Below, one piece after another: positions 17,388-59,825 of a stretch of 64,000 nt of DNA. A model generated the notes under the pieces. It saw only the letters and a list, made by a program, of their open reading frames with translations, was not told the DNA's origin and made no database searches. Made by a program: the position numbers and the translations under genes. Source of the DNA: Lepisosteus oculatus (taxonomy: Eukaryota > Chordata > Actinopteri > Semionotiformes > Lepisosteidae); contig NC_090709.1 of the NCBI RefSeq assembly GCF_040954835.1, positions 45,454,490-45,518,489 of the forward strand, read 5' to 3'. Each line of letters opens with the position of its first letter. Positions within the stretch are counted from its first letter, which is position 1.

Positions 17388-19571
17388 TCACACCAGAAGT
17401 AGGCTCCGCGCCCTGAAACGCTGCGTTTTCTCTCTTCTCTTTTCAGCATGGAATAATCCCTCAAGGATTCCATTTTCTTTATGGATATTATTGTTGCTTT
17501 TAACTGGTTTCATGTTTCTCTCCTCTCTCATCTTCCACCGTTTCTGACACACAACAGCACCCAGTGCAGCACCCATCAGCACAGCCACTATCGCAGTGAT
17601 GACTGCAACGCTTACAGGCCATGACACTCTCCTCATCTCTGAAAACACAAGAACAGAGACAGTCACACAGAGAGCAAACCTACAACAGCAAGAAGGAAAA
17701 GAAAAACTATCCAGCAGCCGCTGTGAGAGAGTGTTCTGGCTGCCCAGTTTCACATCCCAGCTCAGAGCCCGAGAAACACCAGGAGAGGAGCTGGAAAACT
17801 GCCGTCTCTGAAACACCAGCTGACACACTGGACCTGTGTGATCGGCTTCAAACCACAGGAGAAAATCAGCACTGAAACAGCTCAAGTATTGTTTATTCAT
17901 AAGCAGGTAAGTTCAGGTGGAGATCAGTTGAACTCAGTTTGTCCTGTAATGAAGACTCACCTCCCACAGTGACAGTGACGATCGCAGTGCTGATGGTGTT
18001 TCCCTGAAGGTCCCTCACTGTGTAGCTCCCCTGATCAGCTGGTGTGAGGGAGCGCAGTGTCAGAGAGCCGTCCTGCACTGCTCAGTAAGACTCCGGGAGA
18101 CTGGGCAGATACTGCAGGATCAAACAGCACCTCCACTGGAGCAGCAGTGTGGAGAGGGAGAGTCAGATTGTCTCCAGACTGCAGGGTGAGGACTTCTGAT
18201 CGAGCTGAAATTCAAGGAAAGGAGCAGAGTGAAAGAATGATGCAGACAGCAATTCATCAGCTGTAAAGACTGCACTCACTCAGAGGAGACAGTATTGATC
18301 ACATTTAAGTCTTGAGATTGAAGATAGTTTCATAACAGCAACAATTACTTTGAGTTTTAAGTTCAAATATATTCAAGGACCTTAATGAAAAATCCTTCAA
18401 TGTCAGGAAATCAATACCTAATCACATTTAGCTCCTATTAACCCCACACATCAGGGACTGACACTGGTGAAAGAGTCACACTGTGCACGTTCCCCACTGG
18501 AGCCCCACTCTCACCTCCCACAGTGACGTGGACAGTGCTGATGGGGGTCCCCTGGGAGTCCTGCACTGTGTAAGTGCCCCCGTCTTCAGCTCTCACACTG
18601 GAGATCTTCAGCACCTGGTCTTGAACCTTCAGCCTGCTGGAGTCTGGGGTCACAGTGCTGTCGAGCACAGAGCACAGCCTGCAAGACTCTCCTCCCTCAG
18701 GCCTGAACCACAGCTCTACAGCCTGCTGTGTGCGCAGAGGGACACTAAGGGGGTCTCCACAGGAGAGACTGATGTTGTCCTCGTGTCCTACAGGAAGACA
18801 TTGACAAGGGAGCGGTCAGTCACATGGTTGTCCCCGAATTCCCCCTCAGTCATGGCCAGAATCAGGTGAAAATATCAGCCATGATCTTGGGATGAAGAAG
18901 AAGGAGTTTGGAAGAAAAAAATGCAAACAGATGCTGTTGCACCCTAGAGAACAAAGAGGACTAACAACCGTAGGTCCGGTTAGTTGTCAGGAGTCATGGA
19001 TCACTGTCCTGTACACAACCGAGTGTTCAGATCGCAACAAAGAAAAAGATTACCTTGAACTGTGAGCTTCACATCTCCGAGGAATTTTCTCTTGCTCTTG
19101 TCATCCACAAATCGACACTCGTAGATATCCTGATCCGAGAATGTCACGTTATGAAGGATCAGGGAGAAAGCTCCATCTTTGATCCTCTCTCTGGACAGCT
19201 CAGCTCTGTTCTCGCACCCTGGGTAAGTGTGGATTTGGCCACTGTAGAACTCCAGCACACGGCGGTCGGCAGTCTGCCACTGTATAATCTTCTTCTCCTC
19301 GGGAGTGTGTCTGTAGGAGCTCCCATCACAGGGCAGAGCTACAGTGTCCCCATAGAGCCCAGACACAGAGAGGAGAGCAGAGCACACTGGGAGACAGAGG
19401 ACAGAGACAGAGAGACACTTCAGCTCCCTTAAAACACACAACAGTGAGACAGCTCTCTGGAGGTGACTGTAACTGCTTGTGGACAGCATTTCTTCACAGG
19501 CGAGCGAACGACAACTCTGATCTCTTACCTTGTGAGCAAAACACTGTCAGGACAACACCCAGGACCGTCAT
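17388..19571 (-). pseudogene. Family C Ig receptor, copy C1 (D3 broken, tail truncated)
   Basis: Minus-strand exons: leader 19,571-19,529 (MTVLGVVLTVFCSQ), V 19,386-19,054 (333 bp; DTVALPC, IIQWQ, SDQDIYECRF), D2 18,787-18,515 (273 bp; VPLRT, GGTYTVQD), D3 18,204-17,961, and TM from 17,638. D3 is 244 bp: about 41 bp are lost after GAGCAG compared with C2, which breaks the phase 1-1 frame. The TM exon keeps SWPVSVAVITAIVAVLMGAALGAVV and KRWKMREERN, but after GILEG the sequence departs from C2 and stops, so the ITIM region is gone. If D3 were skipped, a V-D2-TM protein with a short basic tail could still be made. The V domain is B7/butyrophilin-like. Confidence 0.75.
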
Positions 19572-19809
19572 GATGAGGGACCTGCAGTAAGACTGCAATA
19601 TGAGTGAGGCAATTAAAGCTGAAAAGAAAATCAGTGTCCACTGTGGTTTAAATAACCAGTTAGGAAAATTACAAAGTAAGAATGTTCTTTGTCAGATGAT
19701 GAAAAGACACCAGGATCCAGCTACAAGGAGCACAGTAACTTGAACACATACAATGTAAAATGTTCTTCCGCACTAGAACAGCAAGATAAACATGCACACA
19801 TTTTCACTT

Positions 19810-20375
19810 ACAGTGCCTTGCACAAGTATCCAAACCCTTTAAAAGTTTGCTAATGTTGCTGGATTACAAAAGACATCTTTTTTCAACTAGTATTTGGACT
19901 GCAAACAGTCCGCATTTAAAGATAAAACCAGTTATCAGCTGACAAATATTGTCACGTCAAAACCTGAAATACAGCGCTTGCAGGAGTATTCAGACCCCAC
20001 TCATTAATATTCGGTGGACCGACCTTTTACCACAACAACAGCTTTAAGTCCTTTAGGGTACAGTAGGTGCCAGCCTGCGGCTCCTTCAGCTCATCCCCCG
20101 CCCTGGCTACACGGACACAGCTGTCACTGTATTGGGCACAACTGCACCACTGGGACACCATGGACTGCACACACTCTGGACACATCGCAGCTCGACTCAT
20201 ATCGAGTTTTATTCAATTTCTATTACATCTATTATCGTGTAACCTTATTTTCGTAACCTCAATTGTGTGATTTTTGTGTTTTTGCGATTCTTGTGAGCTC
20301 GCAGAAAAGACACTTCATTGTCAGCAGCTACTGCTGCACGCTGTCTTGTGGTGCGTTTGAGAGATAAACTTTGAT
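19810..20375. mobile_element. Tc1-like terminal fragment and a LINE-type 3' tail
   Basis: CAGTGCCTTGCACAAGTATCC at 19,812 and GAGTATTCAGACCCC near 19,985 resemble the terminal regions of fish Tc1/mariner-related elements. A related piece lies upstream of C4 at 60,079, so the insertion may predate the C1/C4 split. The stretch ending in GATAAACTTTGATTTGC (20,360-20,385) looks like a LINE 3' end. No transposase frame is present. Confidence 0.45.
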
Positions 20376-20599
20376 TTGCTTTGATTCATTCCCCTCCCTC
20401 TGGTTGGTTACCCGTGTAAAACGATGGGAATCTCCTTCGCTGAAGTTCCGCACCCGGGACAGACCTCGACTCGCCTTCCTGAGCCCAGAGACCGGCCGGG
20501 TACTGGAGTACTGGAGTCAGACACTGCGAGTCTGTGACTGTGTTACGGTGTTACTGTGACTGTAACTATAACAACCCCAAGGGGAGGAGCCAGCTGGGA

Positions 20600-21160
20600 A
20601 ACTTTGAATACTCCTCCCTAGACTAGCCAATCACAATGCGGAATAGGAGGCGCCCACTAATCAGCTTTAAGGGTTAAGAAAAGGGAGGGGCGGTGGGTAC
20701 AATAGGAGCGGTTTGCGTGTCACTGTACAGAGGACACTGCGCTACCGACTGAATTCGCTCCGTTTTCAAGCTCGTGTGCTTTTTTTTTATTTGATTCTTT
20801 AATTTAACGATGGCTCTTACATAGTTTGCCGCTGTTTTTTTAAATATATGGACTTAATGGCGATGCTCGTCTCTCCCTCTGAAAACAAAAGTGTAATCGT
20901 TGTGCTTCACTAAGCACGTACGTTTGTCTAACTGGCTTCCTCCTCTTTATTTTCAGGAAAGGCGGGCGGGGAGGGGGGCCTGCCTGTAAAGTACTTTTAC
21001 CCCTTTGGGTTTCTTCAGTATGATTCTTTTTTTTATATAAAAGAAGACGAGGAAGGAAGCCAACTGCTTTGGTTTCGAGTTCAGTCAGCATGACGTGGTA
21101 GCGTCGATAGTTATCGTTCTTGTTTGGAGCGCAGTCGGTCGCCATGATGGCCGCCACTTT
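20600..21160. promoter_or_regulatory. CpG-rich promoter-like segment, present three times in the window
   Basis: A CCAATCACAATG box (20,630), a GC box (GGGAGGGGCGGTGG, about 20,683) and GGACTTAATGGCGATG recur at 25,600-25,865 and, less well, 45,480-45,690. On the minus strand GTGGCGGCCATCATGGCGAC (about 21,155) combines a YY1-like site with a good start context and opens a 105-codon frame. That frame is unlike any family I know and is not kept at 45.9 kb, so I do not call a gene. Confidence 0.35.
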
Positions 21161-21329
21161 GTCAAAGGGAAGGTTTACGCCTGTGCCGAATTCGCTATGT
21201 TAAAACTTAAGTTTTTATTTAAACACCAAAAAAAAGAGGAGACAGAATAGTGAAATACTGTATATACAGAGATAAACACTTCACAGCCAGGGGAATTCAC
21301 AATTGTGAAAACTAAAAGCTATACTTTTT

Positions 21330-22190
21330 ACATATTTCCCACTGTATTCTAATAGAATTTAAATAAAAAAGGAAGTCAACTTTAAAAGCATGAATAGAGG
21401 GAGCAGTATTAGAGCATTTAGATTTGTGGGTAAAATATTAAGCCAAAATATTCAACAGATTAATTAAAACATCCTTTATCCAAATCAGATCTAACAAAAT
21501 ATAAAATGATAATCTTTCAGTTTAACGTTTAACTAAGTGTTGAGCATTCATATTTTGCAGATCTATCCAAAACAATTCTGTATATATGAAGTTAAACAAA
21601 TGTAATTTAAGATTCCTTCTCATTATTACAAAATACACAGAAGTCATCTTGCTCATGTTTAAATCTAGAAAGTGTCAATTTAACAGGATAAAAATCTGTG
21701 AGCGATCTTAAATGAAATTTCTTTAACTTTATTTGTAAGACAATATATATCAGGATTTGACCACACTAATTTCCTATTTATGTTCCTAAACATAGCATTC
21801 CAAAAGGAGATACAAGAATGTATAACATGACTTACACAAGTTCCTAACATAGTAATTATTGCATTTCTTATATCTATTCCATCCAACAATAAATTATTAA
21901 ATTATCAGAAGATAATCTATTGGCAAGGCCAAGACTACCTCTAAACAGCCTCATCACTTTCTCGGGAACAGTATCAAAGACCATAGCATGTTCTCGGAGA
22001 GTAATAGGAATCTTATTTTCCATAAAGTCAGTAAACAATCTGCCCTCTTCATGTAACAATTGGGCCACTAGACAGATTCTGTCATCACACCAAGTCGTCT
22101 CTGAAAGTTAGGTAATTGAAGATTAATTCTAGTGATATCAAAAGTAAATCTGAACACATTCAAGATCAAGGGTGGGTGTTCTGCTCGGTT
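21330..22190 (-). repeat. Degenerate L1-type LINE ORF2 C-terminal fragment
   Basis: Minus-strand frames contain LLHEEGRLFTDFMENK, ISFWNAMFRNINRKL and SNTAPSI with a FLFYLNSIR end, in order but broken by stops and shifts. The layout is like the C-terminal part of L1/Tx1-type ORF2. The duplicate block lacks this insert at the same place (about 46.1 kb). Confidence 0.55.
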
Positions 22191-22984
22191 CACCTCCCCA
22201 TTACAGTTTTCTGTCTCCTCTTTTCTCTTTCTGGTGTTTAAAAACGTGTTTTAAAACTCTCCCTGCCGCGATGTTGGTACAGTAAAGGAGAAGAAAATGG
22301 ACAACGTTTCGGGTGTTTCTTTTCATCATGGAATAAACCTTTGCTTGTGCTTTTATTAAGTTGGTCTGTGCTCCTCGCATCTTCCACTCCCCCCCGTGTG
22401 TAATGGCGCTAACCGGACCTCCAGCCTGTAACCCTTTCTTACTGCGAACTGCAGAAGTGAGAAGCTATTTTAGAGGCGGCTTCATAAAATAGTTCTTTGC
22501 TGTTACAAGCCGCTCGGTTTGTACGTGTGAGGACTGGAGAGCTACAGGGGTAAATGAGTTTACTCTGGCAGGAGACACAGACCTGTGATGGGTTTTTATT
22601 TCCAAGAGAGGCTGTACCGGGAGCTCGACATGATTCAGAGTTTAATAATAAAGGAAACGTTGCGTTACGGGTTTAAAAAACTGCATTTTCTTTTAATTAG
22701 GAAACATGTCTTTGTTTAACACGGGCGACATGATCAGAGCTGCGTTGTGTCGCCGGGTGTGCAGGAAACTACAGCAGAAGCGAAAGTCAGACTGGAGACT
22801 TTGTGGACATGTAATATAAATCAAACCTCGCCTCGCTAGGGGGCGTTCTGAGCCGAGCCGCTCTTGAATGGAGCGACACACTATCTTTGATTGCTGTGTA
22901 GCTGGTACAAAATCTGGCCCTTTCCTTTAAAAATCGGATTTAAATTCCATTTAGACACGCAATAACAAAACCGGTATGTATATA

Positions 22985-24420: not shown

Positions 24421-24519
24421 AAGAAAGCAGTGTGTATTAATGTTGGACAGGGCAAAAGAGCAGCGCGGGAGGATAAAACACTGGAGAAGCTCTTTCTTTT
24501 CCTCTGAGCATGTGTCTGT

Positions 24520-31390: not shown

Positions 31391-34133
31391 ATGAAGGTCC
31401 TGAGGAGTGTCCTGGCTCTGGTTTGCTTTCCAGGTAAGGATTGGACTTGACTTTCAAGTGAATGTTTTTTTCATTTATTAAGCTCTTAAGTGAGTTGTTA
31501 AACCACCTGGGGAATTGTTTTCTATTGTAGCTTTCCTACCCTCACTCAAATGTATATTGCAGGTCCCTCGTCAGTCCTGGTCGTTGTCCTGACTGTGGTT
31601 TCTTGTGAAGTTAAGACATCAGAGTGCTCATTCACTTACCTGTGAAGAAATCGAGCAGTTAGTCACCTCCAGAGAGCTGTGTCTCACTGTTTTGTGTTTT
31701 AAGGAAGCTGAAGTCTCTCTCTGTCTCTGTCCTCTGTCTCCCAGTGTGCTCTGCTCTCCTCCCTGTGTCTGGGCTGTATGGGGACACAGTCGCTCTGCCC
31801 TGTGATGGGAGCTCCTACAGACACACTCCTGAGGAGAAGAAGATTATACAGTGGCAGACCGCCAATCACCATGTGCTGGAGTTCTACAGTGGCCAAATCC
31901 ACACTTACCCAGGGTGCGAGAACAGAGCTGAGCTGTCCAGAGAGAGGATGAGAGATGGGGATTTCTCTCTGATCCTTCATAACGTGACATTCTCGGATCA
32001 AGATATCTACAAGTGTCGATTTGTGGATGACAAGAGCAACAGGAAATTCCTGGGAGATGTGAAGCTCACAGTTCTAGGTAATCTCCTTTCTCTCCCTTGT
32101 GATCCGAGCAGTTTGAGGGAAGCGGGTGTTTACAGTGTAGTGATTCCTGACTCGTATCGACTAACCTGACCTACAGCTGTTTTCTCTCTCAGTTCTCTAG
32201 GATGCACAAGCATCTTCTGTTAATCATTTTTCTTCCTTCTCCTTCATCCCAAACCCCAGATCAGGACCCTTGGTGAATTTTAGCCAGGGCTCAACTCAGA
32301 CGATGTTGGGGTATATGACTGAATTCAGTCTTCAGACCAGACAGGGAATTCTGGGACACAACCATGTGACTTGCCTGGTGTTGCTGACCGATCACTTGTC
32401 AATGTCTTCCTGTAGGACACGAGGACAACATCAGTCTCTCCTGGGGAGACCCCCTCAGTGTCCCTCTGCGCACACAGCAGGCTGTAGAGCTGTGGTTCAG
32501 GCCTGAGGGTGGAGAGTCTCGCAGGCTGTGCTCTGTGCTCGACAGCACTGTGACCCCAGACTCCAGCAGGCTGAAGGTTCAAGACCAGGTGCTTAAGATC
32601 TCCAGTGTGAGAGCTGAAGACGGGGGCACTTACACAGTGCAGGACTCCCAGGGGAACCCCATCAGCACTGTCCACGTCACTGTGGGAGGTGAGAGTGGAG
32701 CTCCAGTGGGGAACGTGCACAGTGTGACTCTTTCACCAGTGTCAGTCCCTGATGTGTGGGGTCAATAGGAGGAACTAAATGTGATTAGGTATTGATCTGA
32801 TATTTAAAGTTGTCATTAAAGTTGCAATTATAGTAATTTAATATTTTAAATTAAACAAAACTCTAAATCAGTGTTGCTGTTCTGAAACTATCTTCAATCT
32901 CAAGACTTAAATGTGATCAATACTGTCTCCTCTGAGTGAGTGCAGTCTTTACAGCTGATGAATTCCTGTCTGCATCATTCTTTCACTCTGCTCCTTTCCT
33001 TGAATTTCAGCTCGATCAGAAGTCCTCACCCTGTAGTCTGTAGTCTCTCCCTCTCCACACTACTGCTCCAGTAGAGGTGCTGTTTGATCCTGCAGGATCT
33101 GCCCAGTCTCCCAGAGTCTTACTGAACAGCACAGGGCTCCCTGGCCCCGGGTACGAGCAGAGAGTGTGGATGCAGGACGGCTCTCTGACACTGCGCTCCC
33201 TCACACCAGCTGATCAGGGGAGCTACACAGTGAGGGACCTTCAGGGAAACACCATCAGCACTGCGATCGTCACTGTCACTGGGGGAGGTGAGTCTTCATT
33301 ACAGGACAATCTGAGTTAAACTGATCTCCACCTGAACTTATCTGCTTATGAAGAAACAATACTTGAGCTGTTTCAGTGCTGATTTTCTCCTGTGGTTTGA
33401 AGCCGATCACACAGGTCCAGTGTGTCAGCTGGTGTTTCAGAGACGGCAGTTTTCCAGCTCCTCTCCTGGTGTTTCTCGGGCTCTGAGCTGGGATGTGAAA
33501 CTGGGCAGCAAGAACACTCTCACACACTGGCTGCTGGATAGTTTTTCTTTTCCTTCTTGCTGTTGTAGGTTTGCTCTCTGTGTGACTGTCTCTGTTCTTG
33601 TGTTTTCAGAGATGAGGAGAGTGTCATGGCCTGTAAGCGTTGCAGTCATCACTGCCATAGTGGCTGTGCTGATGGGTGCTGCACTGGGTGCTGTTTGCTG
33701 TAAGAAACGGTGGAAGATGAGAGAGAAGAGAAACATGATACCAGCTGAAAGCAACAATATTAATATCCATAAAGAAAATGGAATCCTTGAGGGATCTGAG
33801 AGGCTCAGTGATGCTGTGTCCCTGCGCATGGAGGAAGACTATGGTATAGGAAGTGAGATTGTCCCAGTGGTTAAACTCCATTATACTCCAGTTCCCGGTG
33901 GATCCAGTTCTCCCAGTGTTACTGCAGGAACCCCTTCAGGCACAGTTATTGTGAAAGACCCAGAGCAGGGGACAGACTCAGGATATCCATCTGAGGAGGA
34001 TGATGGTGAGCTGCCTCCTGCAGGTGAAAAAGAATCAACAGTCCTGGAGCTCAGTGGAGGGTCGACCCCAGCTGATCCTGAAGACCAGTCGAGTCTGGAA
34101 GAGGCTCTGCTGACTGATAAAGGAGATCGGTGA
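31391..34133 (+). CDS. Family C Ig receptor, copy C2 with ITIM tail (D3 exon broken)
   Basis: Exons: leader 31,391-31,433 (MKVLRSVLALVCFP), V 31,745-32,077 (DTVALPC, IIQWQ, SDQDIYKCRF), D2 32,416-32,688 (VPLRT, GGTYTVQD), D3 33,011-33,287, and TM plus tail 33,610-34,133. All joins are phase 1. The tail is the longest of the family and has LHYTPV, a canonical ITIM (LxYxxV), plus acidic stretches. D3 is damaged: TAG at 33,034-33,036 and an 8-bp deletion, giving 277 bp. Skipping it leaves V-D2-TM-tail in frame, so a working inhibitory receptor is possible. D2 has no canonical disulfide. A second leader-like relic lies at 31,563-31,610. ATAAATAAA near 35,000 may be the polyadenylation site. Confidence 0.7.
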
Positions 34134-36241: not shown

Positions 36242-39044
36242 ATGGACGCGCCGGCGGCGGCGAGAATCGCGCTGGTCTTCCTCACCCGTGAGTAGGCTAG
36301 CGTCCCCGTCAAATGCGCCTCTTCGGGGTTCATGCACGGCCAGACCGGACCGGACCGGAGCGACGTTGCGCGCAAAAACGTGCGGCGCTCAAGCCGCTTG
36401 GCGGGCCGCGCTGGGTTCGAGGGCGCTGCTTTGGATTTGCTGTGCGGCGGAAGCGATTCGGATGAGCAAAATCGGGTTTTTTTTCTGTTCTCTTCTTGAT
36501 AAGCGGGGCATCCTCGCTCCTGAAACAGCAACGGAGTGTGAAACGTGTTTCCCTCTTAGTTCTGGGTACCAGTCCGAACCGGTACTTCATAAGGCCAGCA
36601 GTCTGAAATAAACCGCACCGATGAGCTTCGGTCCTCTGTAACTGTCCTGTTAGCGAGCAGTGTACCCGGACGGATCTGAAATCAGCCCGCCAGCCCCGTC
36701 CTGCCGGTGTCTGAAAAGGACTGACGCGAGTTTCCTGTCTCAGATGTCTGCATGACGCGGGGACTCGGGGCCAAACCGGCCGCGGTCGCGGAGCTGCGGG
36801 TCCGAGCCGGAGACACGGTCACCCTGCCCTGTAGCATCAGGCACCTGAAGGAGACGCTGTGGGTGATACAGCGGCCCCTGGAGATGCCGCTCATCGCCGC
36901 CGTCGGTCAGGTCAGCGGCTCCCAGGTCAACAAGGAGGTGGAAGAGGGGTACCGGTCTCGCCTCTCCCTCGTCCTCGAACCCTCGACCCTCTCCGTCAGC
37001 CTGACGCTCGCCAACCTGACGGAGTCCGACCGGGCGCTGTACTACTGCGCCGACAGAGTCGGCGGGCAGCTGAGCTTCGGAAACGGGACGGAGCTCGTCT
37101 TCCCCGGTGAGCCCCAGCCACCGCCCCTCAGCGCGGATCGCTCTGTCCTCAGCTCTCTGATCCGTTTTGCGGGCAAGAATACAATCGTTCATCTGCCGTC
37201 AGCCCTCCGGGAGAGCAGTACGTTGTGCTGAGGTCGGGTTTATGCAGTAGATTTACAGTTCCCCCCTAATTTCAACGACCAACCCCACCTTTTCTTTACC
37301 GTGCGGTGTCCTGGACTCCTGTCAGCGTGAGATACATAGAAGGACATTTAAAACTGAGAACTGGAGGCTCTACTGTACACAGAGGGGGGCGGGGGTGGGG
37401 AACAAGCTGCCCAGCCGTGTGGTTGAAGCCGATACCCTGGCTTCTTTCCAGACACAGCTGGGTGAGCTCCTCCAGTCAGGACAGGAGGGTCTTCTGTGCA
37501 CAGAGGGGGGTGGGGGTGGAGAACAAGCTGCCCAGCCCTGTGGTTGAAGCCAATACTCTGGCACAATGGGGTTTCATTAGAGAGGTTCCCAGTCTGGGGG
37601 CTCTTCTCCCCCGCGCTCGGTGAGGTGATCCAGACACGGTCCCCTGAGGGCTGTTTCCTTGTCTGTGGCAGGAGGAGGCCCGGAGCGTTCCCCACCCGTT
37701 CACCTCCAGCTGTCCTGCCTGCTCGTCCTGCTGTCGGCTCTGCCTCTGAGCGCCCTGGTGTCCTCTTACTGCGCCTACTGCCTGTTTCCGGGAGACGGTA
37801 CGGCCGCTCGGCCCTGCTGGACAGGACCGTGTCCAGCTCAGTGCACTGTGAATCATGACGGGACCTCTCGCACCAGGAACAGGGATCCTACCTGTGAGAG
37901 CTGGTGTTCGCTCTGCCAGCTGCTGTGTCCTGGTCTTCCTAACCTCCTGCTGCAACGTCTCCTTACAGCTCCGGAGCTGTGTGTCGCCTGTCGGAAGAGT
38001 TCGAGGGCAAAACGTCCACCCAGCATTCGGGTAATTCAGACGTTACACTTTCTAGATCACAAGACAGCAGCAGAACGAATCGCAAAATCTAAAGGGCAGC
38101 CGTGCTGGGGCTCTGGGTTCAATGATGGACCTGGGGTGCTGTCTGTGTGGAGTCTGCATGTTCCCTTCATGTTGGTGTGGGTGTCCTCCAGGAGCTCCAG
38201 TTTCCTCCCACAGTCCAGAGACAGGCTGGAGGGCTCATGGTAGGATAACTGGCTTAAGTGTGTATGTGAGTGTGTGTCCTGTCTAGGGTGTGAGTGTCTG
38301 TGTGTGTCCTGTGATGGACTGGTGTCCTGTCCAGGGTGTGTGTGTGTGTGTGTGTGTGTGTCTCCTGTGATGGACTGGTGTCCTGTCCAGGGTGTGTGTG
38401 TGTGTGTGTGTGTGTGTCCTGTGATGGACTTGTGTCCTGTCCAGGGTGTGTGTGTGTGTGTGTCCTGTGATGGACTGGTGTCCTGTCCAGGGTGTGTGTG
38501 TCTGTGTGAGTCCTGTCCTGTGATGGACTGGTGTCCTGTCCAGGGTGTGTGAGTGTGTGTGTGTGTGTCCTGTGATGGACTGGTGTCCTGTCCAGGGTGT
38601 GTGTGTGTGTGAGTCCTGTGATGGACTGGTGTCCTGTCCAGGGTGTGAGTGTCTGTGTGCGTCCTGTCCTGTGATGGACTGGTGTCCTGTCCAGGGTGTG
38701 TGAGTGTGTGTGTGTGTGTGTGTGTCCTGTGATGGACTGGTGTCCTGTCCAGGGTGTGTGTGTGTGTGAGTCCTGTGATGGACTGCTGTCCTGTCCAGCG
38801 TGTGTGTCTCCTGTGATGGACTGCTGTCCTGTCCAGGGTGTGTGAACATGACACCAGCAGGGGGAGCTCAGGACAGGCTGCAGAGGGGCTGAGCTGAGCT
38901 GGCCTCTCACTCCTGGTTTCCCTGTGGTATCGTCCCCCCCCGCAGGCGGCGACAGGCGATCAGACGCAGTACGAAAACGTTGACGTGACCGTGCCCCCGG
39001 CCGCCCCCAGGAACAGAGACGTCCGCAGGATGAGGCCCGTCTAG
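36242..39044 (+). CDS. Family V Ig receptor, copy VB, apparently intact
   Basis: Five exons join without a frame break: leader 36,242-36,287 (MDAPAAARIALVFLT), V 36,744-37,106, TM 37,672-37,797, a small basic exon 37,969-38,030 (ends ACRKSSRAKRPPSIR) and a last exon 38,946-39,044. The V domain has LPCSIRHLK, LWVIQRP, SDRALYYC and a J-like FGNGTELVF. The TM exon has a hydrophobic core and CAYC on the cytoplasmic side. The last exon has TQYENV, fitting TxYxxV (ITSM) and also YxN (Grb2-type), and ends VRRMRPV. AATAAA is at 39,210. One germline-joined V domain plus TM plus tyrosine motif resembles fish NITR receptors; that assignment is inference. The CA minisatellite lies in the last intron. Confidence 0.75.
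38270..38845 (-). repeat. CA-rich minisatellite inside VB intron
   Basis: About 12 units of CACCAGTCCATCACAGG with CA spacers (minus strand), the counterpart of 14,590-15,285. Unit order and spacer length differ from VA. Here most units read CACCAGTCC, while in VA many read CAGCAGTCC. Confidence 0.8.
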
Positions 39045-41968: not shown

Positions 41969-44436
41969 TCACTGATCTCCTCCATCAGACAGCAGAGCCT
42001 CTTCCAGATTTGACTGGTCTTCAGGATCAGCTGGGGTCGACTCTCCACTGAGCTCCAGGACTGTCGATTCTTCTTCACCTGCAGGAGGCAGCTCACCATC
42101 ATCCTCCTCAGATGGATATCCCGAGTCTCTCTTCTGCTTTCACAAAAACTGTGCCTGAAGGGATTCCTGCAGTAACACTGGGAGAACTGGATCCACCGGG
42201 AACTGGAGTATAATGGAGTTTAACCACTGGAACAATCTCACTTCCTATACCATCGTCTTCCTCCATGCGCAGGGACACAGCATCACTGAGCCTCTCAGAT
42301 ACCTCAAGGATTCAATTTTCTTTATGGATATTAATATTGTTGCTTTCAGCTGGTATCATGTTTCTCTCCTCTCTCATCTTCCACTGGTTCTTACACACAA
42401 CAGCACCCTGTCCAGCACAGCCACTATTGCAGTGATGACTGCAACACTTACAGGCCATGACACGCTGCTCATCTCTGAAAACACAAGAACAGAGACAGTC
42501 ACACAGAGAGCAAACCTACAACAGCAAGAAGGAAAAGAAAAACTATCCAGCAGCCGCTGGGAGAGAGTGTTCTGGCTGCCCAGTTTCACATCCCAGCTTA
42601 GAGCCCGAGAAACACCAGGAGAGGAGCTGGAAAACTGCCGTCTCTGAAACACCAGCTGACACACTGGACCTGTGTGATTGGTTTCAAACCACAGGAGAAA
42701 ATCAGCACTGAAACAGCTCAAGTATTGTTTCTTCATAAGCAGGTAAGTTCAGGTGGAGATCAGTTTAACTCAGTTTGTCCTGTAATGAAGACTCACCTCC
42801 CCCAGTGACAGTGACGATCGCAGTGCTGATGGTTTTTCCCTGAAGGTCCCTCACTGTGTAGCTCCCCTGATCCGCTGGTGTGAGGGAACGCAGTGTCAGA
42901 GAGCCGTCCTGCACCCACACTCTCTGCTCGTACCCGGGGCCAGGGAGCCCTGCGCTGCGCTGCTCAGTAAGACTCCGGGAGACTTGGGCAGATCCTGCAG
43001 GATCAAACAGCACCTCCACTGGAGCAGCAGTGTGGAGAGTGGAGAGGGAGAGACAGATTGTCTCCAGACTGCAGGGTGAGGACTGATTGAGCTGAAATTC
43101 AAGGAAAGGAGCAGAGTGAAAGAATGATGCAGACAGCAATTCATCAGCTGTAAAGACTGCACTCACTCAGAGGAGACAGTATTGATCACATTTAAGTCTT
43201 GAGATTGAAGATAGTTTCAGAACAGCAACACTGATTTAGAGTTTTAAGTTCAAATATATTCAAGAACCTTAATGAAAAATCCTTCAATGTCAGGTAATCA
43301 ATACCTAATCACATTTAGCTCCTATTGACCCCACACATCAGGGACTGACACTGGTGAAAGAGTCACACTGTGCACGTTCCCCACTGGAGCCCCACTCTCA
43401 CCTCCCACAGTGACGTGGACAGTGCTGATGGGGTTCCCCTGGGAGTCCTGCACTGTGTAAGTGCCCCCGTCTTCAGCTCTCACACTGGAGATCTTCAGCA
43501 CCTGGTCTTGAACCTTCAGCCTGCTGGAGTCTGGGGTCACAGTGCTGTCGAGCACAGAGCACAGCCTGCGAGACTCTCCTCCCTCAGGCCTGAACCACAG
43601 CTCTACAGCCTGCTGTGTGCGCAGAGGGACACTGAGGGGTTCTCCCCAGGAGAGACCGATGTTGTCCTCGTGTCCTACAGGAAGATGTGACAAGTGATCA
43701 GTCAGTCACATGGTTTTGTCCCAGAATTCCCCCTCAGTCATGGCCAGAATCAGGTGAAAATATCAGCCATGATCTTGGGATGAAGAAGGAGTTTGGAAGA
43801 AAAAAAATGCAAACAGATGCTGTTGCACCCTAGAGAACAAAGAGGACTAACAACCATAGGTCCGGTTAGTTGTCAGGAGTCATGGATCACTGTCCTGTAC
43901 ACAACCGAGTGTTCAGATCGCAACAAAGAAAAAGATTACCTAGAACTGTGAGCTTCACATCTCCCAGGAATTTTCTCTTGCTCTTGTCATCCACAAATCG
44001 ACACTCGTAGATATCCTGATCCGAGAATGTCACGTTATGAAGGATCAGGGAGAAAGCTCCATCTCTGATCCTCTCTCTGGACAGCTCAGCTCTGTTCTCG
44101 AACCCTGGGTAAGTGTGGATTTGGCCACTGTAGAACTCCAGCACATGGTGGTCGGCAGTCTGCCACTGGATAATCTTTCTCTCCTCGGGAATATGTCTGT
44201 AGGAGCTCCCATCACAGGGCAGAGCGACTGTATCCCCATAGAGCCCAGACACAGGGAGGAGAGCAGAGCACACTGGGAGACAGAGGACAGAGACAGAGAG
44301 ACACTTCAGCTCCCTTAAAACACACAACAGTGAGACTGTACCTGCTTGTGGACAGCATTTCTTCACAGGCGAGCGACAACTCTGATCTCTTACCTTGAGA
44401 GTAAAACACTGTCAGTACGATACCCAGGACCTTCAT
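41969..44436 (-). pseudogene. Family C Ig receptor, copy C3 (pseudogene)
   Basis: Minus-strand exons: leader 44,436-44,394 (MKVLGIVLTVFYSQ), V 44,272-43,940 (open, 333 bp), D2 43,674-43,402 (open, 273 bp), D3 43,091-42,797, TM and tail 42,474-41,969. D3 is 295 bp: a tandem TCTCCAC adds 7 bp, so the frame is lost, and a further pair of small insertions follows. The TM exon has lost 10 bp after IVAVL, which ends the span early. The tail has lost another 8 bp after VK, downstream of a preserved LHYTPV. Three separate lesions make this the most damaged copy, yet its V and D2 exons are clean. A secreted V-D2 form is not excluded. Confidence 0.8.
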
Positions 44437-46775: not shown

Positions 46776-49700
46776 CTCAATTCAATTCAATTCAATTCAA
46801 GGTGCTTTATTAGCATGACCGATGGGTACAATCAGTGTTGCCAAAGCAAATAAAAATAATAAAATTAACATAGAACAAAACAAAAAATAGAAGTAAAATA
46901 AAATCTACAGACATGTTACAGACATTTACAACAAAGACATATTATATAATATCGACATATACTGTAGGCGGCTGGAGCATTATTGGGAGACGGACTCACT
47001 GTTCCTCAGGCTGTGACAGGAGATCACATACTGGGCTGCCAGATCAACTGAGTTCCCTCCTCCCTCTCCCAGTAGGATTGGGACCTGTTGTGGTTTTGGC
47101 AGGTGTGGGAACTCTGGGATTAGATTTCTGAATTTCGGGAAGAATGTTTCTCTAATCCCAGAGTATCTGTCACAGTGCAGTAGGAAGTGCACCTCTGTCT
47201 CTATTTCTCCCTGCTGGCAGTGGGAGCACAGCCTGTCCTCTCTGGGCAGCCAGGTCTGCCTGTGTCGCCCAGTTTCTATGGCCAGGTTGTGGTCACTGAG
47301 CCTGTACTTCGTCAGGGTCTGTTTCTGTTTGTTATTTTTTATTTTGGTCAAATATTCAGCTAGTGTGTATTGTCTGTTTAAGGTTCTGTAGCATTCCAGT
47401 TTATGTTGTGTTTGTGTGTGTGTGTCCCAGTGTGTGAGATATTGCTGTTTGATCTGTGCTGTGATGTGGTTGAGTCTGGGTTGTGGTGCTCTAGCAGTGC
47501 TGTCCTGAGGCTGGTTAGTGTTGGTGTGGCTCAGGTCGGTGAGCCTCAGGACCAGCTGGCTCAGGGGGCTCTGTTTTGGGCTCAGCTCTTGGCTCAGCAG
47601 GGCTTTGTGGTGGTAGGAATTTTGGTCACTGTTTTTTAGGTGTAGCCAATACTTTAATATTCTTTTCTGTATGTTTATCAATAGTGGGTACTGGCCTAAT
47701 TCGGCCCTGCACCCGTTGTTAGGAGTTTTTCTCTGCACACGGAGGATGATTCTACAGATCTCCATGTGCAGAGTTTCTGTGGGGTGTTTGTCCCATTGGG
47801 TGTAATCCTGGTCTGTGAGGGGACCCCACACTTCACTGCCGTATAGGGCAATGGGTTGGATTACACTTTCAAATATTTGGAGCCAGATTCTCGTTGGTGG
47901 GTTGATGTTGAAGAGCCTCCTTCTTATTGCGTAGAAAGCCCTGAGTGCCTTCTCCCTCAGTGCCTTCACTGCCAGGTCAAAACTCCTGGAAGAGCTGATG
48001 GTGAGACCGAGATATGTGTAGCTGGATGTGTGCTCCAATGTGTTGTTGTTCAGTGTGAATTTGTACCTGTTTCCCTGAGGTCTGGCTTTCTTCTGGAAAA
48101 CCATAACTCTGGTCTTGTCCAGATTGACTGTCAGTGCCCAGGTCTGACAGTACTGCTCCAGCAGTGCCAGGTTCTGCTGCAGCCCCTGTTCTGTGGGCGA
48201 CAGCAGGACCAGGTCATCTGCGTAGAGCAGGAACTTGATTTCTGTGTCGTGTAGTGTAAGACCAGGAGCTGCAGACTGCTCCAACATTCCTGCTAATTCA
48301 TTGATATAGATATTGAACAGTGTTGGGCTCAGGCTGCAGCCCTGTCTCACCCCGCGGCCTTGGGTGAAGAATTTAGTCCTTTTGTTTCCAATTTTCACTG
48401 CACATTTGCTCTCTGAATACATTGATTTAATTATGTCGTACACTTTGCCCCCTATGCAACTTTGGAGTAGTTTATAAAACAATCTCTCATGCCAAATCGA
48501 GTCAAATGCTTTTTTGAAATCGACAAAGCAGGCAAAAAATTTTCCTTTGTGTTTTTGGTGGACGTGTTTGTCTATCAGTGTGTGTAGGGTGTAAATGTGA
48601 TCAGATGTGCGGTGATCTGGCAAGAAGCCAATCTGACTTTTACTCAGGACATTGTGTTCGGTAAGGAAGGCCAGTATTCGTGTATTTAGGATACTGCAGA
48701 ATACCTTCCCCAGGTTACTGTTCACACAGATGCCCCGGTAGTTGTTGGGATCGAGTTTATCTCCACTCTTATAGATGGGCGTGATCAGTCCTTGGTTCCA
48801 GGCCTCGGGGAAACATCCAGCTGTCATGATGAGATTGAGGAGTTTGAGCAGGGCTTGTTGCAACTTTGGGCTGCTGTGTCTCAGCATCTCATTTATGACT
48901 CCATCATTGCCACAGGCTTTGTGTGGTCTGAGGGCCTGGAGTTTGTCCAGTAGCTCCTGCTCAGTGATTGGGGAGTCTAAGGGGTTTTGGTTGTCTTTGA
49001 TAGCCAATTCCAAAATTTTGAGTTTTTCATAAATGGTGTTTTGGTCTGATTGATTTGTATTTGGGAGCTTTTCATAGAGATTTTCAAAGTATGTTTGCCA
49101 GATTGTTCCATTTTGGATGGCCAATTCTTCTGGTTTTGATTTGTTTAAGTTGTTCCACTTCTCCCAGAAACAATTCTGATTTAGTGACTCCTCAATTTCT
49201 GCAAGTTGTTTGTCTATGTATGTGTTTCTTTTCTTTTTCAGCGTGTGTTTGTAAAGTTTTACCATGTCACAGTACCTGAGTCGCAGATCTGTGTTGTGTG
49301 GTTGTCTGTGTTTTTCATTTGAGACTTTTCGTAGTGCATTTCTGATGTTTTTGCACTCCGTATCAAACCACTTTTCTTTTGCTTTTGTTTTTTGGTAGTT
49401 TTTTGATGTAGTTGTTTTTAGCTTAGATTTTGATGCTAGTTTGTGGAATAGGTGATTTAGTTTTTGTGTGGCCAAGTTTATGCCTAATTTGTTGGTTTGA
49501 TACGGAGTGTTTAGGAATGTGTCCATCAGTGTCTGAATTTCGTCATGGCCCAGTGCAGTTTGGTATCTGTCTAGGCTGTCTGTGTCCCATCTGTATGCCT
49601 GGTTGAGGTCATACAGCTGGCTGGGCTGTGTCAGTGTGTCTCTGTGCTGGTGTGTTCTCTTCATGTAGAGTGTGATCTGGCTGTGGTCGGAGAGGGGAGT

Positions 49701-50483
49701 TTGTGGCCTGACAGTGAAGGCACTGATACAGGAGGGGTCCAGGTCGGTGATGGCGTAGTCCACCACACTGCTGCCCAGAGCTGAGCTGTAGGTGAACCTG
49801 CCTAGAGAGTCCCCTCTAGTCCTGCCGTTGACGATGTACAGGCCCAGCCCTTGACAGAGCTGCAGCAGCTTGCGCCCGGTGCTGTTGACCGTGGTGTCAT
49901 GGCTGCACCTGTGTGAGGTGACCGGTGTGTGGTACAGAGGGGATTGTCCGAATATGTGAGTGTTTCCCTGTGTGCTGGTGAAGTCTGCCAGTGTGCCTGT
50001 TCGTGCGTTGAGGTCACCACAGAGCAGCACGTTTCCCTGGCCCTGGAAGTGACCAATCTCCGTGTGGAGACTGGGGAGAATTCCCTCACTGTAGTAGGGG
50101 GATTCTGAGGGCGGGATGTAGACAGCACACAGGAAAACCTAGTTTTCTGTACAGATGGTATTTCTTTTGATTTTAAGCCAAACTCGTGACTCTTCTTTCT
50201 TTACTAATTGTATGGAGTGACTGAGCTCCGCTCTGTACCACACAATGATCCCCCCAGAGTCTCTGCCCCGGGTGATTTGGGGTTTTTTGACAGAGGGCAC
50301 CATGATCTCCTTGTAGCCTGGGGGACAGTGGGTAGCCAAGTCTCCCCGACACCATGTCTCCTGTAGGATCATGATGTCTGTCTCCTTTACATCCTTGATA
50401 AATTCAGGATCAGTGCTCTTCAGCCCAAATGCTGACGAGCCCAGACCCTGAATGTTCCACATACTTATCTTTAGAGATCTCAT
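46776..50483 (-). mobile_element. Non-LTR retrotransposon (APE endonuclease + reverse transcriptase), nearly intact
   Basis: One minus-strand frame starts at ATG 50,483 and runs to 46,980, about 1,168 codons, with a single in-frame TAG at 50,141-50,139. Endonuclease motifs (WNIQGLG, ILQETWC, GDLNARTG, LSDHSQITLY) precede reverse-transcriptase motifs (ITPIYKSGDK, FVDFKKAFDS, QGCSLSPTLF, FLLYADDLVLLS at about 48,213) and a C-terminal CSHCQQGEIETEVHFLLHC zinc-like motif. The 3' UTR ends in repeated TTGAA near 46,780. No ORF1 is seen. The element splits sequence that is continuous in the other block (near 23,560). The clade is not assigned. Confidence 0.9.
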
Positions 50484-50856
50484 TGTTATCGTTTGAATTA
50501 TCTTTGCAATTTGTTATTGTTTTCTGGAACTGTATCAAATTTGTGTCGGACATTTACATCATCAACAGAAACAAGTATTGTGCTGGGTTTTTGTCTGTCG
50601 CTGTGGGTGATGGAAACTCTCTCTCGCTCTCTCTCGGCTGGTCGGGAGAGTGCAGTGCTGCTGGCAGGTGATAACGGAGAAAGAAATACAGCGCCGTTTA
50701 TAACTCCGCAAGTCTGAGTGTCTCTGTGTTCGTCCTCACCGAACCCGCATTCGTTACAATATGTCTGTGTGCTCTTGCTTTTTGGCTCTGACAGGCAGCA
50801 GATAGACCACAGCGGATTACGGAAATGAAGAGGGTTCAGTCACCCAACAGCATGAA

Positions 50857-51500
50857 TGAACCCCCTGCAAGAGACTGACCACACTCCCTTCTCCTCCAGT
50901 CACTCCTACAGCACGAATGATCCCCTGCAAGAGACTGAGCACCCCCCCTTCTCCTCCAGTCACTCCTACAGCACGAATGATCCCCTGCAAGAGACTGACC
51001 ACACTCCCTTCTCCTCCAGTCACTCCTACAGCACGAATGATCCCCTGCAAGACACTGAGCACCCTACCTTCCCCTCCAGTCACTCCTACAGCACGAATGA
51101 CCCCCTGCAAGAGACTGACCACACTCCCTTCCCCTCCAGTCACTCCTACAGCACGAATGACCCCGTGCAAGAGACTGACCACACTCCCTTCCCCTCCAGT
51201 CACTCCTACAGCACGAATTACCCCCTGCAAGACTGACCACACTCCCTTCCCCTCCAGTCACTCCTACAGCACGAATGACCCCGTGCAAGAGACTGACCAC
51301 ACTCCCTTCCCCTCCAGTCACTCCTACAGCACGAATGACCCCCTGCAAGAGACTGACCACACTCCCTTCCCCTCCAGTCACTCCTACAGCACGAATGACC
51401 CCCTGCAAGAGACTGACCACACTCCCTTCCCCTCCAGTCACTCCTACAGCACGAATGATCCCCTGCAAGAGACTGACCACACTCCCTTCCCCTCCAGTCA
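50857..51500. repeat. 60-bp tandem array, about 10-11 units
   Basis: The unit CACTCCTACAGCACGAATGA plus CCCCCTGCAAGAGACTGACC and a spacer repeats every 60 bp, with one unit 2 bp shorter near 51,230. The matching place in the other block (about 23,760-23,820) has one worn unit. Because 60 is a multiple of three, long open frames run on both strands; they are not genes. Confidence 0.85.
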
Positions 51501-51544
51501 GAAAGCTCTCACAGCAGCTGGTGTCACTCCACGATGTGTTGCAG

Positions 51545-53005: not shown

Positions 53006-53109
53006 AATAAAGTTTTCAGAAAACCTTTCATGTGTTTGTGTTCATTAAGTTATTTCTGACATTTGGAATCTAACCAGATGCCCATGGGTCAGTATAAATA
53101 GCACCGGGG

Positions 53110-56100: not shown

Positions 56101-56420
56101 CACCCCCAGCCTGAAGGGATGTTCCTAACGCACCTCCTTCTGGATATGTGCGAAGGAAAATAAGACTTACATCAATACTGCTGTGCATTCAATTTTGGGA
56201 GTTAAATTAATAATCTCCCAAATTCATAAAATTAAGTTAAACTCATGAAATCCTTTCCAAAGGACCTGAAAGTGCTTTACATATAGGAGGGCACTGTTCA
56301 CCGTGAACCTCAGACTGTTCAAGCTCTGATCTAGCCAGGAATGTGGTCAGGACACTGATTATTAATACTGCTAATCTGGCCATGTTCAACTATTTCAATG
56401 GGTCCTTGACTGTCGTGTGG
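53110..56420. other. Gene-free stretch
   Basis: The 53,965-54,100 part is a worn 121-bp repeat. The stretch CCTTCTAGATATGTGC (55,615) recurs as CCTTCTGGATATGTGC (56,126), a local duplication about 510 bp apart. Frames such as 53,128-53,556 and 54,153-54,515 match nothing I recognise. No RNA gene is seen. Confidence 0.4.
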
Positions 56421-56429
56421 ATAAACTAC

Positions 56430-57060
56430 TCTTTTGCTTGACAAAAAGCTCTCTGGTGGATTTTTACACAGACAAACGACATTATATACTGATGGAAAAA
56501 AGAAACGCAACACCCCCTCCTCCATACTCTGGCCCTCTCGTCTGCATGGAACTGGCTGGAGAGGTCCTGATGACCCTGCTGACAAGTCCAGCACAGCCTC
56601 TGTCTGGCCCAAGCCAGTCGGGTGCGACGTCTAGGAGGTGTGAGCAGAGGGCCTCTGACAGGTCGCTTTGCTCTAAGGCCAGCAGCATGGAGCCTCACTG
56701 TCCTGTCACTGATGCGGGCATTGTGTCTGCCGGCAGTTTCAGCAGCAGTATGGGTGGCAGATCTGAAACGATCTCTCAGATGGACAAGTCTGATGTGTCG
56801 GTCCTGCTCTGGTGTGGTCACTCGAGGATGACCGGATCATCTGTCCTGCCCGTCTGCTGAAACGTTCTCTGCAGTCAGGACACAGTGGAGCGGCTTACTC
56901 CATAGTGTCTGGCAACGCTGGCACATGACATGCCTGCCTGCAGCATGCCAATGGCCCTCTCCCTTGCTTCTGGTGACATTCGAGGCATTATGGAATGCAC
57001 AGCAAACTGACTAAGTGTGGCCTTTTTCTTGTAGTGACCTCAGCTTTGAATTAAGGCCTT
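56430..57060 (-). pseudogene. Tc1-like transposase pseudogene
   Basis: The minus strand begins near 56,990 with MPRMSPEARERAIGMLQAGM (helix-turn-helix start) and continues, after shifts, with QDRHIRLVHLRDRF, GRHNARISDRTVRLHAAGL and RTRLAWARQ, the order of a common fish Tc1-like transposase. The catalytic region is shortened (FHADERARVWRRG where FTDESRF is usual) and the rest is missing. AAAAAAGAAACGCAACACC at 56,495 looks like a terminal repeat. The element is dead. Confidence 0.75.
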
Positions 57061-57642
57061 TTTAAAGGTGACCTGATCAGGCATTGTTCCACCTGGACCT
57101 CGTTGGGTAAAAGTGCACCTAACGAGCTTTCGTGTGATTGGCAAGTTGCAATGCCTCACTGCACAAGCTGTACTGCTGGTCAGAGGGCTAAAAACAAATT
57201 GACAAGCTATAACTATAGGAGGCTGCAAGTAACAGGTTTCTTCCGGTGCTGAAAAGAGAAGAAAGAAAACACAACGTTTCGGCTGTGGAGCCTTCTTCAG
57301 GTGTGAGCCGAAAAGTTGTCTTATCTTCTTGTCTTGCTCCTTTGCAGCCTACGCATGCTGACGCAGCTCCCCACCTTAACTACAATAACTATAGTATTCT
57401 CATTCCCGAAAATGTTGCACTTCTTTTTCCCCCCATCAGTATATTTCTTAAAACGTCCTGTCTGATTGCTCATCCAAGCTAACGAGCCCTGGACTGTACC
57501 CCAGTGAGCAGATCAAGGGCTCTGTGCAGCACTGACCCGACCGCAGGCTGAGCTTGGCTCCGGACCAGAGCTTCAGAGCGATGTTCAGCATGACGACCAC
57601 AGATGTTTCCATGAGCTCAAGCCCCCTCTGTCTCGTCTGCAG

Positions 57643-57829
57643 CACAAACGCTGGGCTCAGGAGGAAGGTGGAGAATTTGACAACAGACTTGCACTGACAG
57701 TTTCCTGTCTTGTGTCTGTTGCTGTGTCTCTGCTGGGCTGTGTGCTGGTTTATTCCTATCCACCCCGGAGGGCACCATCAAGCAGAATTTGGATCAGAAA
57801 CTACCCAAATGTGTCCAAAATATCCCAAG
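57643..57829 (+). other. Orphan transmembrane-type exon candidate
   Basis: After a good acceptor (TCTGTCTCGTCTGCAG, to 57,642) a 187-bp segment is open: an acidic start (AQEEGGEFDN), a hydrophobic span LALTVSCLVSVAVSLLGCVL, then VYSYPPRRAPSS and RIWIRNYPNV, ending in phase 1 at CCCAAG|GTGATG. A membrane span followed by W, I and P-N residues recalls box 1 of class I cytokine receptors, but no neighbouring exon supports that. It lies on the strand opposite to C4. Confidence 0.35.
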
Positions 57830-58028
57830 GTGATGGTGAGAAACAAAAATGTGTAAAACTGGTCCGTGCTCCGTTTTTGTAAGACGCCTGTAACCCCACC
57901 GTTTTTTTTTTCTCAAATATCAGATGCTTTTGATTCTGCACACATCAGTGAGCTTTTCAGATTCCTCAAGGTGTCCGTTTTCTTTACGGTTATTAACAAT
58001 CTTGCTCTTTCAGCTGACCGGACAGTGG

Positions 58029-59825
58029 TCACAAGTCCTCACAACAACACCACTTAACACACCCAATACAGCACATCAGCACAACCAACACTGCAACAGT
58101 GATTCCAACAATTGCAGGCCATGACATGGTCATTGCGTCTGAAAAAAAAAAAACAAGAACAGAGGCAATTCAACATAAACAAACCTAGAAAAGCAAAATG
58201 AAAAATATCCAGCAGCCGGCGTCTGAGACACAGAGCTTTCTACATCAGTAAGGGATCTTGTTGTCAAGAATCACATCCTGAAACATCTCTAATTGCAGCT
58301 CAGAACCCGAGAGACGCCATGAGAGGGGCTGGAAAACAAGACAGTCTCACTCTCATATCTGAAACAGCAGCAGATGGTTTCACACTACAGAAGAAAATCA
58401 GCACTGAAACAGCTGGAGCAGAGGGCTAATCTCAAGTCAATTTTATTCATGCAGTTGCTTGATTTTGTCTACTGAGATTGAATGATAGAAGACATTTACT
58501 TTAGATGAAGATGAGTTTAACTCATAGTTTTTCCTGTACTAAAGACTCACCTCCCACAGTGACGATCACAGTGCTGATGATGTTTCCCCGAAGGTCCTTC
58601 ACTGTGTAGTTGCCCTGGTCAGCTGGTGTGAGGGATCGCAGTGTCAGAGTGCTGTACTGCACCGACACTCTCTGCTCGTACCCGGGGCCAGGGAGCCCTG
58701 CGCTGCTCAGGAAGACTCTGGGAGACTGGGCAGATCCTCCAGGATTAAACAGCACCTCCACTCGCTCAGCAGTGTGGAGTGGGAGAGTTAGATTGTCTCC
58801 GGATAGCAGGGTGAGGACTTCTGATCGAGCTGAAATTCAAGGTACAGAGTAAGACTGATTCATTCAGCAAATTATCAGCCTGAGAGACTCTCCTCCCTGA
58901 GGCCTGAACCACATCTACAGCCTGCTGTGTGCACAGAGGGACACTGAGAGGGTCTCCACAGTAGAGACTGATGTTCTCCTCATGCATTGACAAATGATCA
59001 GTCAGCAACAATAGGAAAAACGCAGTGTTCTCCCAAAATTCCCAGACTCTCCTGAATAGAGAATTCAGCAACGTAACCCGACACCGTCTGAGTTGAGCCC
59101 CGGCCATTATAATGAGCTAAAATTTAGCAACAACCCTTTTCTGTGGTTTGGGATAAAAGAAATGTAGAAGAAAAATCAGATATGCCCAAATATAAAAGAG
59201 GAAAAACAGCTGTAGGGATCCTTTCTCTTACAGAACCGATTTCCTCAAACTGCTCGGATCACAAGGAAGGAAAAGGAGATTACCTATAACTGATGTGAGC
59301 TTCACATCTCCGAGGAATTTCCTGTAGCCATTTTCATCCACAGTTCGACACTCGTAGGTATCTTCATCTGAGAATTTCACATTATGAAGGATCAGGGAGA
59401 AATCTCCATGTCTGATCCTCTCTCTGGACAGCTCAGCTCTGTTCTCAAACCCATTGTAAGTTTGGATTCGTCCTCTGTAGAAATCCACCACGTGGCGGTC
59501 GGCAGTCTCCCAATGTATAATCTTTCTCTCCTCAGGAATGTGTCTGTAGGAGCTCCCATCACAGGGAAGAAAGACTGTGTCCCCATAGATCCCAGTCACA
59601 GGGTCGAGAGCAGAGCACACTGGGAGACAGAGGACAGAGACAGAGAGAGACTCAGAAACACAAGTCAGACATCAGCTCCCTTAAAACAAACAACAGTGAG
59701 ACACAGCACTCTGGACGTGACTAACTGCTTGTGGACAGCATTTCTTCACAAGCAACTTCACACAACAACTGTGATCTCTTACCTTGAGAGCAAAACACCA
59801 TCAAGACAACAACCAGGACCTTCAT
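58029..59825 (-). CDS. Family C Ig receptor, copy C4: V-D3-TM with short cysteine-rich tail
   Basis: Minus-strand exons: leader 59,825-59,783 (MKVLVVVLMVFCSQ), V 59,619-59,284 (336 bp; DTVFLPC, IIHWE, SDEDTYECRT), D3 58,829-58,551 (279 bp, open; LTLPLHTAER, GNYTVKDLRGN), TM 58,138-58,029 (SWPAIVGITVAVLVVLMCC, then CVKWCCCEDL and stop). D2 is a relic (about 58,876-58,987): its acceptor is deleted and its second half is missing, while the surviving half keeps the B-strand cysteine (VPLCT). Joined phase 1-1-1, V-D3-TM is a complete two-domain receptor with no tyrosine motif. The clustered cysteines may be palmitoylated. It is the most divergent of the four copies. Confidence 0.7.

Follow-up and report, generated by a model that had tools for sequence, protein, structure and literature searches.

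Why should four neighbouring genes of a single receptor family have lost opposite domains? The question is raised by a stretch of 64,000 nucleotides from the gar Lepisosteus oculatus (the window, G000:C14:45454490-45518489, in an assembly of 1.2 Gb), which holds four related genes, C1 to C4, for receptors with immunoglobulin (Ig) domains built from a leader, a V exon, two middle domain exons (D2 and D3) and a transmembrane (TM) exon. An earlier note on this DNA reported that C1, C2 and C3 each carry a broken D3 exon and that C4 has lost much of D2, and took this to suggest relaxed constraint on having both domains or routine skipping of D3. The observation is confirmed, and its interpretation is partly supported. 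The explanation that we hold with moderate confidence is a family of phase-1 Ig modules that evolves by birth and death and can dispense with either middle domain, as in primate KIRs. C1 to C4 would then be members of an Ig-superfamily group of receptors that duplicated recently, lies nearly entirely on one chromosome and turns over through duplication, decay and the exchange of exon tracts between copies. Its middle domains would be modular, with loss of either keeping the frame and with both broken equally often among the counted copies.

The family was delimited by a DNA search of the genome with the C2 V exon, which gave 28 matches from 28 candidates. Nineteen of these, at 85-100% identity, all lie on contig C14, four of them within the window; below 85%, one match lies on contig C3 (77%) and eight at 66-75% lie on contig C14 near 40 Mb. 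Outside the window the same genome thus contains 15 close copies, designated by L-numbers like all copies elsewhere in the genome, and 14 of them entered the counts to give 18 together with C1 to C4. The 9-kb regions extracted (n = 20) comprise the 15 close outside copies, the copy on contig C3, two genes of the window and two from the more distant group of eight. Exon integrity was examined in 20 copies, two of which were then set aside from the counts: L050, which has a V frameshift and for which neither a D3 donor nor, within its 9 kb, a TM could be found, and L052, which sits on contig C3 with a V exon at 77%. Aligned blocks of C1, C2 and C3 share 85-97% identity over hundreds to 1967 bases and C4 is lower (short seed matches being ignored), so that the likeness of the four genes exceeds chance.

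The intact copy L040 defines the gene model, with a leader of 43 bp, V of 333, D2 of 273, D3 of 285 and a single TM and tail exon of 521 bp, encoding 484 amino acids (aa). An intact D3 exon measures 285 bp in general and 279 bp in the C4 type and in L044, and the exon lengths place every border in phase 1, in agreement with the phase 1-1 borders of the earlier note. The L040 product matches the Pfam V-set domain PF07686 at 65.9 bits (cut-off 26), Ig_3 at 34 bits (cut-off 30) and I-set at 29.4 bits (cut-off 23.7), the best stretches of the latter two being short and inside D2; the V and D3 domains of C4 together give 50.2 bits for V-set and 31.2 bits for Ig_3, with the best Ig_3 stretch inside D3. 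With these matches, the additional Ig domains and an open frame from leader to TM, the predicted product is an Ig-superfamily type I membrane receptor with the V-set domain first, the leader and TM character having been judged by eye. Comparison of the L040 ectodomain with PDB sequences gives weak and general matches to MXRA8, MOG, PD-L1, butyrophilins such as BTN3A, CD276 and others among the best 60 of 347, and KIR is absent from those best 60. Structure predictions for C4 D3 and C3 V (mean predicted local distance difference test scores of 47.9 and 57.4) yielded no usable model and were not used. Two alternative types of leader exon lie upstream of V; only the distal type was found intact in C2, L037, L038 and L046, both types are carried by L045 and L047, and both are intact in L047. 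A literature search, with most subscription journals beyond its reach, found no title on this receptor family among those listed.

The lesions themselves are read directly from the DNA. Measured again between their AG and GT ends, the D3 exons of C1, C2 and C3 are 244, 277 and 295 bp long, all of them frame-breaking, and the V and D2 exons of the same three genes are all open, as had been reported. C1, on the reverse strand, has an open leader (19529-19571, 43 bp, phase 1), V exon (19054-19386, 333 bp) and D2 exon (18515-18787, 273 bp), followed by a D3 exon (17961-18204) frameshifted by one 41-bp deletion and by a TM exon with a shortened tail and a non-homologous end (17388-17638, 83 aa), the cytoplasmic tail having been replaced, a change beyond those in the earlier note. 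C2, on the forward strand, carries an in-frame TAG and an 8-bp deletion in D3 (33011-33287) between open V (31745-32077) and D2 (32416-32688) exons and an open TM and cytoplasmic exon (33610-34133, 174 aa). Its nearer leader, around 31573, has lost the ATG and the donor, and the idea of C2 as a leader-less pseudogene was rejected on finding a second, intact leader of the distal type at 31391-31433. The D3 lesions of C1 and of C2 are private to each among 18 aligned D3 exons.

C3, on the reverse strand, is open in the leader (44394-44436), V (43940-44272) and D2 (43402-43674), and its D3 exon (42797-43091) does carry the 7-bp tandem insertion reported as its lesion, which is C3's own but does not stand alone, since changes of -3, +1 and +5 are also present. 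The +1 is common to C3, L039 and L048, and the -3, +7 and +5 occur only in C3 among the 18 D3 exons; the D3 of that lineage was therefore dead before the 7-bp insertion arose. Three separate origins of D3 breakage do hold, namely those of C1, of C2 and of the C3/L039/L048 lineage, but the 7-bp insertion is not a founding event. A further lesion beyond the earlier note is a 10-bp deletion that cuts the TM segment in the C3 TM exon (42374-42474, to the first stop), with more lesions downstream; the notion that the two frameshifts compensate (D3 +10, TM -10) was rejected because the D3-containing frame stops inside D3. C3 and L039 resemble duplicates from leader to tail, about 95 kb apart with no match upstream of the leader, and differ at 4 of 333 positions in V, 2 of 273 in D2 and 3 of 282 in D3. 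C3 would represent a pseudogene lineage in which D3 was already broken in an ancestor that C3 has in common with L039 and L048.

C4, also on the reverse strand, shows the opposite loss. Its leader (59783-59825), V exon (59284-59619, 336 bp), D3 exon (58551-58829, 279 bp) and TM exon (58029-58138, 36 aa with a short tail and a stop) are open, and D2 persists as a remnant of about 105 of 273 bp (58880-58984) that has lost its acceptor and 3' part and contains an internal 2-bp deletion. That such indels are mistakes of assembly or base calling in a tandem family rich in repeats is very improbable: everything does come from a single assembly, and the 7-bp and 5-bp tandem duplications of C3 resemble slippage sites, but errors in base calling do not look like a 41-bp deletion, the D3 +1 recurs at three separate loci, and the D2 deletion of C4 is found in identical form in L051, 93 kb away.

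Across the family, 9 of the 18 copies are open through V-D2-D3(-D3') and TM, so that intact siblings of C1 to C4 are available for comparison; three of the nine (L041, L043 and L045) have shortened or altered tails, with TM exons of 40, 60 and 110 aa. Five of the 18 copies have a broken D3 (C1, C2, C3, L039 and L048) and five a broken D2 (C4, L051, L049, L042 and L048), which leaves each of the two domains open in 13. V is open in all 18, in a set that was found by V similarity and from which L050, with its V frameshift, had been set aside. L044 (G000:C14:40.50 Mb) carries an extra D3' exon, giving four Ig domains in an open frame of 579 aa, and the 3' part of this exon (81 bases) is identical to C2 D3. 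The V-D2-D3, V-D2-D3-D3' and D2-less forms uphold the part of the relaxed-constraint proposal by which a two-middle-domain architecture is not fixed; the part by which D3 would be specially relaxed relative to D2 is not upheld. When founding lesions are counted once per lineage, including that of L050 V, the ratio V:D2:D3 is 1:4:3, with a multinomial P of 0.26 against exon length, 0.50 for at least three of eight in D3 and 0.14 for at most one of eight in V; addition of the L050 D3 donor loss (1:4:4) moves the last two values to 0.32 and 0.09. These and all other lesion counts were made by hand from the integrity table and post hoc, with the data already seen. D3 as a lesion hotspot is not supported on the founding lesions, and there is no clear excess of damage in D3 over D2. 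The apparent hotspot became much weaker because 14 further counted copies were added to the four neighbours, a warning that domain-specific relaxation should not be read from four neighbouring copies.

The fit of the founding lesions to exon length is also what would be expected if C1 to C4 were all dead, with lesions scattered at random over exons and the order of domains irrelevant. The presence of two broken exons in C3 and three in L048, and the existence of intact siblings, agree with such plain pseudogenes, which we nevertheless regard as unlikely, because C4 and its duplicate are open in leader, V, D3 and TM despite the lost D2 and because an independent D2 loss in L049 has the same open V-D3 outcome. 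In these D2-less copies the leader-V-D3-TM frame is open over 255 aa in C4, 253 aa in L051 and 280 aa in L049. C4 and L051 are the duplicates that share the D2 deletion, with 24 mismatches in 3872 aligned bases. The D2 leftovers consist of the 5' part in C4 and L051 and of the 3' part in L049, and two D2-loss events must therefore have taken place. The last base of the L049 D3 exon before the donor is C and not G, which may weaken that donor. In the C4 remnant at most 5 of 105 sites are private, part of them possibly older than the D2 loss; an initial count of 7 of 105 against 14 copies was lowered because L048 and L050 were seen to carry two of these states. The open C4 frame has likely, though not provably, been retained by selection, and the most likely product of C4 and its duplicate is a membrane receptor with two domains, V and D3.

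The fate of C1 and C2 depends on whether D3 is included in their transcripts. If D3 is read, C1, C2 and C3 run into stops 77, 254 and 209 nucleotides ahead of the final exon junction, respectively, a placement that normally triggers nonsense-mediated decay. If D3 is left out, the frame continues through TM in C1 (299 aa), C2 (390 aa) and L039 (273 aa); in C3 it spans 249 aa, with the TM cut. V-D2 receptors could thus come from C1 and C2 only through skipping of D3; as disabled copies with a premature stop in D3 unless it is skipped, these two genes would most likely be unproductive or low-yield. The routine skipping of D3 suggested earlier finds no support in cis. In C1, C2 and C3 the acceptor stretch and donor of D3 agree with those of intact copies, a comparison of the preceding intron in 13 copies of 16 (L043, L048 and L049 were not extracted) showed no deletion that the three genes have in common, and a single alignment column, in the V-D2 intron, sets C1, C2 and C3 together apart from all 10 aligned D3-intact copies. 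No convincing cis change for D3 skipping was therefore found in the splice sites, the preceding intron or the columns shared by C1 to C3.

A different reading is that C1, C2 and perhaps L039 are working V-D2 receptors from which the broken D3 is removed in every transcript as a pseudoexon, as in KIR2DL1 or macaque KIR1D. The open frames without D3 speak for it, and so does the macaque gene, whose exon 3, with a deletion of 5 bp but intact splice sites, is constitutively skipped according to PMC6288254. Because of that example, intact splice sites in C1 to C3 are a weak argument against skipping. The unchanged acceptor and donor, the single distinguishing column, the D3 exon kept open in most copies, and V and D2 exons that are clean in C3 although its TM is broken all point the other way. 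We consider this reading doubtful, at about the same low level of probability as that of plain pseudogenes.

Several observations weigh against the favoured explanation of modular birth and death. In simulations of neutral change, with ranges that span the assumed indel rates, the C4 frame acquires neither a stop nor a frame-breaking indel in 0.7-8% of runs at 5% divergence and in 5-21% of runs at 3% divergence. When every frame-breaking lesion and stop is counted, later ones in dead exons included, V:D2:D3 becomes 1:5:7, with 7 of 13 in D3 (P 0.085) and 1 of 13 in V (P 0.02). V may thus have been spared, which would fit working V-D2 receptors and stands against plain pseudogenes. After the split from L039, C3 acquired three indels in D3, one in the TM and tail and none in the leader, V or D2, so that within leader, V, D2 and D3 all three fall in D3 (P 0.03). 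C2 is open in all its other exons if the distal leader is used. The pooled ratio of non-synonymous to synonymous substitution (dN/dS) comes to 0.31 (V), 0.45 (D2) and 1.30 (D3) for the five copies with a broken D3, compared with 0.57, 0.81 and 0.76 for the nine D3-intact copies, the pooled pairwise values being non-independent and including change before the D3 breaks. The evidence leans towards V, and D2 with it, being kept in D3-broken copies by selection or conversion, with the caveat that a large part of the divergence may be older than the breaks and that the search targeted V-similar copies. Clean V and D2 exons alone are no proof of a working gene, because those of C3 are equally clean despite its broken TM. 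Counts of private substitutions were discarded as a selection test, there being too few in C1 to C3 and the D2 rows of C4/L051 and L049 being inflated by forced alignment past the deletion. Transcript fate, function and any role in immunity are what we infer from sequence throughout.

The exchange of exon tracts invoked by the favoured explanation is suggested by disagreement among the gene segments. The V tree pairs L048 with L049 (100/100) and the D3 tree pairs L043 with L049 (100/99). Synonymous divergence (dS) in the nine D3-intact copies is 0.015 for D2, 0.044 for D3 and 0.126 for V, and D2 differs by 1-3% between most copies and V by up to 11%. The V-D2 intron falls into two types, which differ by about 28% and whose distribution does not follow that of the other segments. 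Together, the conflicting V and D3 trees, the uneven dS and the intron types indicate that exon tracts were exchanged between copies, which gene conversion or unequal crossing-over would explain best. Such exchange would let a V exon join an intact or a broken D2-D3 tract. A more far-reaching proposal is an independent KIR-like system, with a diversifying V on a conversion-homogenised D2-D3 cassette, in which V-D2, V-D3, V-D2-D3 and V-D2-D3-D3' forms all work and broken exons are skipped pseudoexons; we judge this proposal improbable.

Related exons extend beyond the counted copies. The D3-type exon occurs at no fewer than 54 places, with all matches listed lying on contig C14 (176 candidates, 40 scored), and the listed matches include 14 full-length copies at 85-86% between 4.9 and 55.6 Mb, 8 of the 14 with a second, weaker match nearby. 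In the sister subfamily of L053 and L054, V, D3 and D3' exons are present with no separate D2 match, and D3 is 91% identical to C4 D3. Most of the 150 V-set matches listed come from contig C18, and at G000:C18:5257500-5272871 four equal-scoring V-set exons are spaced at exactly 5017 bases. Within the window, positions 46980-50138 of the reverse strand hold an open frame of 1052 aa that resembles a non-LTR (long terminal repeat) retrotransposon reverse transcriptase, as named by eye. Minisatellite-like arrays at 5054-6666, 14600-15400, 38057-38960 and 50837-51500 are open over hundreds of codons; three share a translated unit of the HTHTLDRTPVHH type and the fourth has a 60-base repeat (no tandem-repeat program was run).

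Three known systems offer comparisons. In the mammalian CEA/CEACAM genes, a multigene family of receptors, gene conversion drives concerted evolution (PMC7042247). Concerted evolution in such a family would be the shared feature; domains and hosts are different, and conversion in gar is indicated only by conflicting trees and uneven dS. Like the gar genes, the novel immune-type receptors (NITRs) form a multigene family in fish and are Ig receptors of type I; they carry one or two Ig domains (PMC2442602). They differ in that V exons of the C1-C4 family end in KFLGDVKLTV or close to it, with no FGxG. A J-like FGxG motif at the V end is a mark of NITRs. Two V-type exons on the forward strand of the window, at approximately 13313-13720 (before C1; V-set E 2.3e-8) and 36725-37110 (between C2 and C3), do end in the J-like FGNGTELVF and are presumably NITR-like. 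In the tails of the C1-C4 family no immunoreceptor tyrosine-based inhibitory motif was seen by eye, no tool search having been made.

Opposite single-domain loss is already known within one Ig-receptor family, the KIRs, whose reading frame is preserved by exon phase. According to PMC3443818, KIR3DL1 has the order D0-D1-D2, KIR2DL1 has D1-D2 with a pseudoexon, and KIR2DL4 and KIR2DL5 have D0-D2. Primate KIRs and the gar genes have in common a tandem Ig-receptor family, opposite single-domain losses and domain exons that the gene retains in disabled form (PMC3443818 and PMC6288254). They differ in that the gar family has a V-set domain first and a D2 that matches Ig_3 and I-set, and in that KIR has a 33-bp intron-deletion signature, the like of which was not found in the gar intron before D3 among the 13 copies compared. 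The likeness is one of form, and the gar family is not claimed to be KIR or its homologue. It would provide an example, probably outside mammals, of multi-Ig receptors that change their domain number, as KIRs do, through losses of single phase-1 exons.

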